Positions 4,686 through 7,014 of a stretch of 23,837 nucleotides of DNA are shown in pieces. The notes under the pieces were generated by a model. That model was not told the DNA's origin and did no database searches. It saw nothing but the letters and a program-made list of their open reading frames with translations. Each line of letters begins with the position of its first letter. Position 1 is the stretch's first letter. The position numbers and the translations under genes are program-made. This DNA is from a virus, in the IMG/VR virus record IMGVR_UViG_3300001681_000092, positions 1 to 23,837 of that record. One strand, 5' to 3'.

Positions 4686-4960
4686 TGAAGAATGATACAA
4701 GTTTAAAATTTGATGAGGTTACTGAAGAGAATACGCAAGCATTTAAAGACAAATTTGCTACTGATGTCGAACATACTAGTGAATGTATAACTGAAACAGT
4801 AGAAGCTATGGGAGAGTTAATAGCAAAAGTATGTAAAAGTCAACAATCAGATTTACAGAGCGTATTAGCTTCGATAACTATAGAAACATTTGATGAACAT
4901 CTTAGAGAAATATTAGCAGGGAAGAAATGCAATTGCAGGAAAACGAAACACCTGAATTAA
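4685..4960 (+). CDS. Small acidic protein of unknown function (91 aa)
   Basis: This gene starts at GTG 4685, sharing one base with the phoH stop, which implies translational coupling. The first 80 residues are acidic and probably helical. The last 11 are basic with a CNC pair (GKKCNCRKTKH), which might bind metal or nucleic acid. The 3' end overlaps the next gene by 34 nt in another frame. No family is recognised. Confidence 0.6.
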   Translation: MKNDTSLKFDEVTEENTQAFKDKFATDVEHTSECITETVEAMGELIAKVCKSQQSDLQSVLASITIETFDEHLREILAGKKCNCRKTKHLN

Positions 4961-5655
4961 AGAATTTAGTATCGTTTGGTTGCAGTTGGGCGTTCGGTGA
5001 TGAACTATTAGATCCAGACTTAGAAAAGAAAAATATTCCTAGTCATTACACACAGAATGACGAATATCGATTAAGTCGTTGCTACACAGGAATACTTGCT
5101 AAACAGTATAACCTAACTCAAGAAAATCTAGCATTCCCTGGCTCAAGTTTACAGTCGATGCAGTGGAATCTTATGTGGTGGTTAGATAATCATAATGAAG
5201 AATACATTAAAGACTCTATTTTGCTAGTAGGACTAACAGATGAAAGTAGGATTAGCTGGTATGACCCTAACCATGACGTTGGCAGAGATGACCCTGATTG
5301 GAATAGATACTTGCATGCACAATGGTTAGATTGTGCAGGACCTAACGTACCCGATGGATGGCATAAGCTACACAAGTACCATACAGCAATGTCTGCTTGT
5401 AACGAATTAGATAAATTACGCTATAAAACAACAGTTAGAATGTTTGATGGCGTATCAGCAAGTTACAATATACCTGTAGTGCAGTTTAATTTACTAGCTA
5501 GAACATTTATAAAATGTAATACCTTGCATAACTTGCAGATTCGTGATGTACTTAATGAAGAGAACCAGTATTTTCCAGTTTTTAAACCAGGCGGACACCC
5601 AAATGAACTCGGACATGTAATAATTGCAGAAACACTTGATGAGTATTTAGAATGA
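4927..5655 (+). CDS. SGNH/GDSL-hydrolase-like protein
   Basis: A 242-aa protein with the frame of an SGNH hydrolase. The first strand leads into FGCSWAFGDEL (residues 17-27), where S20 would be the block I nucleophile. The last block is GGHPNELGH (222-230), matching the HPxxxGH end of block V. The usual Asp three residues before the block V His is replaced by Pro221, so activity may be altered or use another acid. SGNH enzymes cleave esters of lipids, sugars or acetyl groups, so a role in modifying a surface polysaccharide, or in an unknown late step, is possible. The start overlaps the previous gene by 34 nt; the first block begins at residue 13, so little room exists for a later start. Its end contains the -35 of the RNA promoter described next. 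Confidence 0.65.
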   Translation: MQLQENETPELKNLVSFGCSWAFGDELLDPDLEKKNIPSHYTQNDEYRLSRCYTGILAKQYNLTQENLAFPGSSLQSMQWNLMWWLDNHNEEYIKDSILLVGLTDESRISWYDPNHDVGRDDPDWNRYLHAQWLDCAGPNVPDGWHKLHKYHTAMSACNELDKLRYKTTVRMFDGVSASYNIPVVQFNLLARTFIKCNTLHNLQIRDVLNEENQYFPVFKPGGHPNELGHVIIAETLDEYLE

Positions 5656-5663
5656 AGTATAAT
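5636..5663 (+). promoter_or_regulatory. sigma70-type promoter for the intergenic RNA
   Basis: TTGATG (5636-5641), a 16-bp spacer and a perfect TATAAT (5658-5663). The -35 lies in the last codons of the SGNH-like gene. The predicted start is near 5670, and no reading frame of useful length follows on the plus strand for over 370 nt. Confidence 0.6.
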
Positions 5664-5669
5664 AGTTGA

Positions 5670-6006
5670 TATGCAGTTAGTTGTTACCGACTAATGTTAG
5701 GTGTTGGTTGTCGCTTACATGCATGATATCAACCCTAAAGTGACGGTCCTTTATTACTTTAGAGTTATTCGGTAATACTGAAACGTATTATGTTAACGGA
5801 TAGCGATACGTAGCTTTGCGTATTTCCAAAATTAAAGTAGTGTCTAAGACTTCTAGTCTAATTGACTATGCTTAGAAAAGGTGGCGAGGTATTCCGTAAC
5901 ATAACGCCATGCACAAAAGTATTATGTTAGCGCAGGGTTTTTTAGTAATAGTTTTGTTTATACCCTCATAACTTGCTAGTCCGACAGGTGTGCGATTCGG
6001 ACTTTT
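5670..6006 (+). ncRNA. Candidate structured non-coding RNA, about 335 nt, family unknown
   Basis: The 390-nt gap between the SGNH-like gene and the primase holds no credible gene, but has a promoter at its left end and a terminator at its right. Hairpins seen by eye: 5677-5683 with 5688-5694 (7 bp, TTAC loop). 5697-5706 with 5730-5738 (one bulge). 5735-5741 with 5756-5762 (7 bp, competing with the previous). 5772-5778 with 5785-5791. 5805-5810 with 5819-5824. 5843-5848 with 5871-5876, enclosing 5854-5858 with 5864-5868. 5881-5886 with 5905-5910. The element GTATTATGTTA occurs twice, at 5785-5795 and 5919-5929. Nothing matches tRNA, tmRNA, RNase P, 6S or a group I intron core by eye. Role unknown; it may regulate host or phage RNAs or packaging. 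Confidence 0.55.
5978..6006 (+). terminator. Intrinsic terminator ending the intergenic RNA
   Basis: AGTCCGA (5978-5984) pairs with TCGGACT (5997-6003) around a 12-nt loop, and the stem runs into TTTT (6003-6006). The U tract is short, so efficiency is uncertain. Confidence 0.6.
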
Positions 6007-6033
6007 CATTCTAACCTAGCATTATTTTTACTA

Positions 6034-6039
6034 TATAAT
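6034..6039 (+). promoter_or_regulatory. sigma70-type -10 box placing +1 on the primase ATG
   Basis: A perfect TATAAT ends exactly six bases before the ATG at 6046, the same geometry as at 525 and 15698. No good -35 is visible at standard spacing (CTAACC at 17 bp). It lies 28 nt downstream of the terminator at 6006, so the primase probably needs its own promoter. Confidence 0.5.
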
Positions 6040-6045
6040 AATATA

Positions 6046-7014
6046 ATGCTAGATATCGTATCCTACTTACCCCCAAAAAGAAAAAAAACAAGCAGTGGCT
6101 GGATAAGTTTCAATGCGATTTGCTGTACATACAACGGCGAGTCACGAGATAAACGCGGTCGCGGTGGGGTAATGCTAGATAGCACAACTGATTGGCATTA
6201 TCATTGTTTTAATTGCGGATACAAAGCAGGTTTTACATTAGGTCGTCCTGTGACACTCAAAGCAAGATGCTTGTTAGGTTGGTTGGGTGTAAGTAGTATT
6301 GATATAGACTGGCTTAATTTAGAAAGTTTAAGACACAAGAGCATTACAGATATATTAGATGACAGAACTGTCCAGCGTAAGAAGATAGAGTTTAAGGAAA
6401 TAGCATTACCTGAAGAGGCACGCGCAATAACACAGCATGATAAAAAGTTTGTTAGTTATTTAAAAGGAAGAGGATTAAAGTACGACGAGTACCCGTTTAT
6501 GATTACTCCTAGAGGCAAAGCACGTTACAAGAATAGGATAATCATACCATACACAAACGATAATAAGATAGTAGGATATACATCGCGTTTCTTAGATGAC
6601 AGATTACCTAAGTACTTAAACGAGCAACAACCTGGTTACGTGTTTGGATTAGATTTGCAGAAAGAGAATTGGCAGTATGCTATAGTTACAGAAGGAATAC
6701 TTGATGCGATAAGTATCAATGGATTAGCAGTCCTGCATAATGAAATTAGCAACGATCAAGCACAGCAGTTAAAACAACTGTACAGAGAGATTATAGTCGT
6801 GCCAGATCAAGATAAAGCGGGACTAAAGCTAGTAGAAAAGGCTATTGAGCACGGGTTTAATGTAAGTATACCAAAGTGGGATGATAAGGTTAAAGATGTA
6901 AACGATGCTGTACAGAAACATGGTAAAATAGCTACAATGCTGTCTATAGTTAATAATAAACAAAGCGGATTTAAGGCAGAAGTACTAACGAAATTTAACA
7001 ACAAGTTTAAGTGA
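6046..7014 (+). CDS. DNA primase, T4 gp61 type
   Basis: A 322-aa primase that makes RNA primers for lagging-strand synthesis together with the gp41-type helicase encoded next. The N-terminal zinc-binding region contains C26-C27 and the HYHCFNCG cluster (H51-C57). The C-terminal TOPRIM domain has the Glu motif VTEGILDAIS (E216) and the DxD motif VVPDQDKAG (D254, D256), followed by KDVNDAV near 283-289. Between them lie RNA polymerase-type basic blocks such as KNRIIIPY and GYTSRF (about 162-182). The length is close to T4 gp61. It probably starts at 6046 without a leader, behind a TATAAT box. Its TGA (7012-7014) overlaps a GTG that opens a duplicated mini-ORF leading to the helicase start. Confidence 0.9.
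   Translation: MLDIVSYLPPKRKKTSSGWISFNAICCTYNGESRDKRGRGGVMLDSTTDWHYHCFNCGYKAGFTLGRPVTLKARCLLGWLGVSSIDIDWLNLESLRHKSITDILDDRTVQRKKIEFKEIALPEEARAITQHDKKFVSYLKGRGLKYDEYPFMITPRGKARYKNRIIIPYTNDNKIVGYTSRFLDDRLPKYLNEQQPGYVFGLDLQKENWQYAIVTEGILDAISINGLAVLHNEISNDQAQQLKQLYREIIVVPDQDKAGLKLVEKAIEHGFNVSIPKWDDKVKDVNDAVQKHGKIATMLSIVNNKQSGFKAEVLTKFNNKFK

Follow-up and report, generated by a model that had tools for sequence, protein, structure and literature searches.

To our knowledge, lytic phages have few structured RNAs. Phage T4 has two stable RNAs, C and D, which are non-coding, lie inside the T4 tRNA cluster and have no known function. GOLLD and ROOL are often found on phages or prophages, and the tmRNA (SsrA) contains several pseudoknots in series within about 300–400 nt. 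Structures of GOLLD, ROOL and OLE are among the material of PMC12286853. In type III toxin-antitoxin systems the antitoxin RNA is an H-type pseudoknot and neutralizes an endoribonuclease (PMC5086642), and phage PhiTE expresses a pseudo-ToxI RNA as a means to escape ToxIN (PMC3475682). This well-studied phage pseudoknot RNA turned out to serve counter-defense.

The locus described here lies in a viral record of 23.8 kb (23,837 nt, IMGVR_UViG_3300001681_000092), the whole of which is termed the window. The first-pass annotation of this DNA had proposed an undescribed structured RNA between an SGNH-like gene and the primase gene. The proposal is supported: sequence, pairing and promoter are conserved in relatives, and no Rfam family was matched. 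No description of the RNA was found in the open-access literature. The reading preferred here, with moderate confidence and on the basis of sequence comparison, is a new non-coding RNA family encoded by phages, which would act early, in trans and through protein binding.

Gene context, homologues and distribution

The gap between the two genes measures 390 nt (5656–6045) and contains no ORF of at least 50 aa, in agreement with the gene-free gap reported earlier. The genes on the 3′ side of the RNA are the primase and a DnaB-like helicase. The SGNH-like protein gave no match in Pfam or PHROG, and a structural protein encoded upstream of the primase in PA5oct showed no detectable relation to it. 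Across the phage group the SGNH-like gene is a frequent neighbor of the primase. It is multiplied beside the primase in two loci: two copies flank the RNA in L230 (3199–4760), and there are four copies in L152 (1043–5016). As far as the contigs reach, the RNA of the homologues is surrounded by PhoH and/or SGNH-like genes and the primase. No partner protein or gene co-occurring with the RNA was visible. The features of the locus are collected in the table.

Table. Features of the RNA locus in the window and the basis of each assignment
Feature	Position	Strand	Basis
SGNH-like protein, upstream neighbor	4927–5655	+	Motif reading only
Sigma70-type promoter TTGATG-16-TATAAT, overlapping the SGNH-like gene at its 3′ end, stop codon included	5636–5663	+	Consensus matching
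RNA of about 334 nt, predicted to be structured and non-coding	5670–6003	+	5′ end estimated from the position of the -10 box; 3′ end set at the last paired base of PK2
5′ hairpin P1, TTAGTTG-TTAC-CGACTAA	5677–5694	+	Folding; hairpin at the corresponding L002 position, read by eye
Hairpin P2: 5706–5710 with 5730–5734	5706–5734	+	Two compensatory changes, window versus L002
Hairpin P3: 5735–5741 with 5756–5762	5735–5762	+	Compensatory change in L002
P4: outer 5764–5771/5797–5804, inner 5772–5778/5785–5791, 3′-side bulge	5764–5804	+	Three compensatory changes, window versus L002
Pseudoknot PK0: S1 5805–5810/5819–5824, S2 5813–5818/5833–5838	5805–5838	+	Geometry-only search in 12 sequences and hand-set helices
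Hairpin P6: 5843–5848 with 5871–5876	5843–5876	+	Compensatory changes in relatives
Pseudoknot PK1, most conserved part: S1 5881–5886/5905–5910, S2 5895–5904/5922–5932 (G5930 bulged)	5881–5932	+	Covariation and geometry search
Hairpin P8: AGGGT 5934–5938 with ACCCT 5962–5966	5934–5966	+	AAAGG/CCTTT type in most lineages
Pseudoknot PK2: S1 5971–5975/5985–5989, S2 5978–5984/5997–6003	5971–6003	+	Covariation and geometry search
Promoter-like element of the primase: AACCTA box 6013–6018, TATAAT 6034–6039	6013–6039	+	Directly before the primase ATG; outside the RNA
DNA primase, downstream neighbor	6046–7014	+	ORF list and Pfam/PHROG searches

A scan for relatives of the primase yielded L001, which is nearly a copy of the window, and a sister lineage (L002–L004), whose gap RNA aligns to the window with many compensatory changes. 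Many other relatives have only about 33 nt in the gap. A covariance model of P4–PK1, termed R1, matched L129 with an E-value of 4e-9. A degenerate pattern was then made from the L129 PK1 sequence, and three further scans added L236, L218, L243, L230, L251, L295, L299, L376 and L377, each of which was confirmed by R1. The homologues comprise 12 distinct sequences, with several close pairs, from one primase clade of environmental viruses that infect bacteria, and the RNA is nearly always located between the SGNH-like gene and the primase. Given the supported pairs on the primase tree (window/L002, L129/L236 and L218/L243), the 12 sequences are not all independent. Among PK1-core patterns run against IMG/VR, over-long exact versions returned only near-identical copies and chance hits, a looser version returned new lineages, and another returned no new lineages.

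Upstream sequence was readable at 226 primase-bearing loci. Of these, 25 show a gap of 357–448 nt, all of them RNA-bearing and many of them mutual copies; one has a 260-nt gap without the RNA, and the measurable rest fall below 100 nt. All RNA-bearing rows of the primase tree belong to one supported group of 16 (99/99), which includes four RNA-lacking rows. L298 and L300 are of this same clade, with the RNA absent at the locus, which speaks against the preferred reading, as do the lack of a visible partner protein, the uncertain 3′ end and the weak promoter matches in some lineages. One gain and two losses of the RNA form a possible history of this pattern.

No match to the gap was found by blastn in 50,697 phage records. 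A PK1 pattern scan of one genome per species for 84,980 bacterial and archaeal species (GTDB), which reaches close PK1 sequences only, gave no supported match; its 25 hits were chance-like, and none was supported by R1 (best E-value 0.036). The model R2 found no copy in the complete jumbo phages PA5oct, Atu_ph07, Phosso, SCTP-2 and Vibrio phage 2.275.O. Over these five and 35 viral contigs it recovered the known clade only, with weak hits at E-values of 0.03–0.08 treated as chance. R2 likewise found no second copy in the window record. A weak R1 match on the minus strand at 2681–2773 (16 bits, E-value 0.0025) falls mostly within a coding region and is probably due to chance.

Promoters, boundaries and the primase gene

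The sigma70 promoter of the first-pass annotation is present, and comparison establishes its position, since an equivalent element overlaps the SGNH stop in the homologues. This reads TTGACA-17-TATAAT in L002, TTGACA-17-TATATT in L129, L236 and L377, and TTGACA-16-TATACT in L218, L243 and L376. On the RNA side, seven of the 12 sequences have a perfect TTGACA and score 11 or 12 of 12; at the corresponding site, 85 of 86 RNA-lacking relatives score 8–10 of 12. The promoter is weaker in L230 (9 of 12), L251, L295 and L299, and is not clearly distinguishable from shuffles there.

The boundaries given earlier have been revised. The stretch given there begins at 5636 with the promoter (5636–5663), and the RNA proper is expected from near 5670. 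An intrinsic terminator had also been described, but a scan found 0 canonical terminators, and the stem concerned is the S2 helix of the pseudoknot PK2. A GC-rich hairpin with a T-run is not a conserved feature of the 3′ end: a short T-run follows PK2 in five of 13 homologues (the window, L001, L002, L376 and L377) and is absent in L129, L236, L218, L243, L230, L251, L295 and L299. As a result, the 3′ end of the RNA is uncertain. The predicted length in the other lineages is 279–352 nt.

From about 6007 onward, the sequence resembles a promoter of the primase. In RNA-bearing lineages the primase ATG is directly preceded by an AT-rich stretch with a TATAAT-like box, upstream of which some lineages have an AACCTA box, and in L230 the second SGNH-like gene and the primase each have an AT-rich -10-like box of their own. 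The AACCTA motif was considered as part of the RNA and rejected; its presence in L300, which lacks the RNA (and in reversed form in L298), led to its assignment to the primase promoter. At the SGNH stop, 6–7 nt ahead of the primase ATG, many RNA-lacking relatives carry a TTGATT-N-TATACT-like promoter. There seems to have been a shift of the primase promoter, with RNA-lacking relatives being leaderless and using the SGNH-stop promoter and RNA-bearing ones using the TATAAT at the ATG (window 6007–6045; L006, L015, L021, L305). As the SGNH-stop promoter directly drives the primase in RNA-lacking relatives and precedes the RNA in the others, the arrangement suggests that the RNA was inserted behind the ancestral primase promoter. 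More generally, it suggests that an RNA unit may enter a compact replication operon by insertion downstream of a promoter already there, the downstream gene then having a promoter-like box of its own.

The same arrangement bears on the main rival to the preferred reading, a cis-acting leader or attenuator of the primase, which is considered unlikely. The promoter at the SGNH end would then read through the RNA, and PK2 would decide on read-through into the primase. The apparent insertion between this promoter and its former target favors such a role, as do the T-run after PK2 in some copies and the fact that the primase comes next in every lineage except L230. However, the gene order in L230 is SGNH–RNA–second SGNH–primase; with this intervening gene the RNA is probably not simply a primase leader and, by comparison of gene order, is separable from the primase. 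The -10-like box of the primase in RNA-bearing lineages and the inconstant T-run also argue against attenuation, and 280–350 nt is large for an attenuator. The earlier statement that the unit is not simply a leader can probably be retained on account of the second SGNH-like gene and the promoter-like box, without the terminator as a conserved feature. As all homologues come from one clade, a function tied to the locus may still apply.

Hairpins and pseudoknots

The region folds better than its shuffles (z -2.4; 0 of 100). Conservation of the RNA is lowest in its 5′ domain, and the 3′ two-thirds have the order PK0-P6-PK1-P8-PK2, that is, three H-type pseudoknots in tandem with two hairpins between. 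The alignment of the gap in related phages proposed in the first-pass annotation has been carried out; it shows conservation of both sequence and pairing, and each helix examined has compensatory changes. The two-part stem that it had pointed out at 5843–5876 corresponds to helix P6. An RNAalifold consensus of three sequences gave a different 3′ fold and was set aside, as this program cannot draw pseudoknots. An 18-nt direct repeat, 89% identical (5781–5798 and 5915–5932), links P4 and PK1 in the window; its P4 copy was not seen in L002.

PK1 contains an 11-nt A-rich loop at 5911–5921. Its S1 helix occurs as GTGGCG/CGCCAT, GTAGCG/CGCTAT, TTAGCG/CGCTAA and GCGGCG/CGCCGT, and S2 is also variable across lineages. 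The test alignment for PK1 and PK2 was fitted to only one helix of each pseudoknot. Jointly, the two pseudoknots have 97.7% standard pairs, with both sides changed in 14 of 26 pairs and 34 double-changed cells against 10 expected. None of 500 shuffles scored as high, and slid structures fall to 22–50% paired. The two helices outside the fitting model, taken alone, are 98.3% paired, with six of 10 pairs double-changed. Such compensatory changes across independent lineages are those of a conserved structured RNA; comparison thus establishes PK1 and PK2 as pseudoknots and conservation at the RNA level.

A geometry-only search, which takes the best H-type pseudoknot per piece of roughly 40–60 nt without an alignment, recovered the identical three pseudoknots in nearly every sequence with near-constant loops. 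The loops are L1 0–2 and L3 6–11 in PK0; L1 10–11, L2 0 and L3 10–12 in PK1; and mostly L1 1–4 and L3 5–11 in PK2, for which L230 has an alternative pairing. The H-type geometry of PK0 and PK2 is compact. The pair tables of PK0, P6 and P8 were chosen by hand for each sequence, so that their pair counts are biased upward; the geometry-only result for PK0 is free of that bias. PK0 is well supported as a predicted pseudoknot, partly by hand-set helices. It was considered whether PK0 and PK2 are duplicated units, and this is unsupported across lineages. The RNA as a whole is defined well enough for the building of covariance models.

Predicted role and comparison with known systems

As its shape has been kept while its sequence changed, the RNA very likely has a job during infection. 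In the proposed mechanism, the host RNA polymerase would transcribe it, probably early, from its own sigma70-type promoter, and the 3′ two-thirds would fold into the chain of three pseudoknots and two hairpins; transcription and timing are both inferred. The RNA would then probably act in trans, serving an RNA-binding protein of the host or the phage as a rigid ligand that resists nucleases. Sequestration or inhibition of a host factor, like that by the phage antitoxin mimics, is the leading guess, and protein binding as a decoy or inhibitor is put forward tentatively. With similar caution, it may belong to an RNA class of unknown kind, in which a rod of three unlike H-type pseudoknots, alone and in trans, reprograms or disarms a host machine early.

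A more specific version of trans action is a mimic of a type III pseudoknot antitoxin, or another RNA decoy, that would switch off a host abortive-infection nuclease. The antitoxins cited above, the PhiTE precedent and the compact geometry of PK0 and PK2 fit this role, which is nevertheless rather improbable. No tandem repeats were found in the RNA, and there is no Rfam match to ToxI. The similarity between PK0 and PK2 clearly exceeds that of shuffles in no more than two or three of the 12 sequences. No toxin gene adjoins the RNA; downstream, the position of a ToxN-like endoribonuclease gene after a terminator is taken by the primase and the DnaB-like helicase.

Origins of phage T4 use promoter-driven R-loops. 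An origin-of-replication transcript, serving as an RNA primer or R-loop, would suit the adjacent primase and DnaB-like helicase genes and is very unlikely, as primers and R-loops can do without conserved RNA pseudoknots, selection is seen to act on the folding of the RNA, and most relatives lack such a unit upstream of the primase. A degenerate or permuted tmRNA, suggested by the pseudoknot chain and similar length, is scarcely credible given the absence of a conserved tag ORF and, by eye, of a CCA end or T-arm, together with negative ARAGORN results for tRNA and tmRNA in 13 sources and the lack of any match to the tmRNA families of Rfam at E-values up to 10.

The first-pass view that this is neither tRNA nor tmRNA therefore holds, and its suggested check against covariance models of known RNAs has matched no Rfam family. 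At curated thresholds, the whole window had no Rfam match; at E-values up to 10, the stretch 5500–6200 gave chance hits only. Nine homologue-bearing sources gave no relative, with chance-level E-values and none consistent across homologues, and no Rfam 15 family was reached at its family threshold. Shuffled sequences generally contain ORFs at least as long as the longest one within the RNA.

Among the known systems, GOLLD, ROOL and OLE are likewise structured non-coding RNAs found through comparative genomics, but they are much larger, are represented in Rfam and have other architectures, and the RNA here has no match to them. The T4 RNAs C and D resemble it as non-coding RNAs of a lytic phage without known function, and differ in being shorter and in their location in a tRNA cluster. 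The tmRNA shares pseudoknots in series and a similar length, and differs in its tRNA-like domain, CCA end and tag ORF. The closest working analogy would be the pseudoknot antitoxins and their phage mimic, taken without their defining repeats and toxin gene. Like these, the RNA is a small non-coding RNA of H-type pseudoknots, and that of PhiTE is likewise phage-encoded and targets a host toxin protein. In contrast to the near-identical repeats of the ToxI type, the RNA here, of 280–350 nt, consists of three unlike pseudoknots with hairpins between them.
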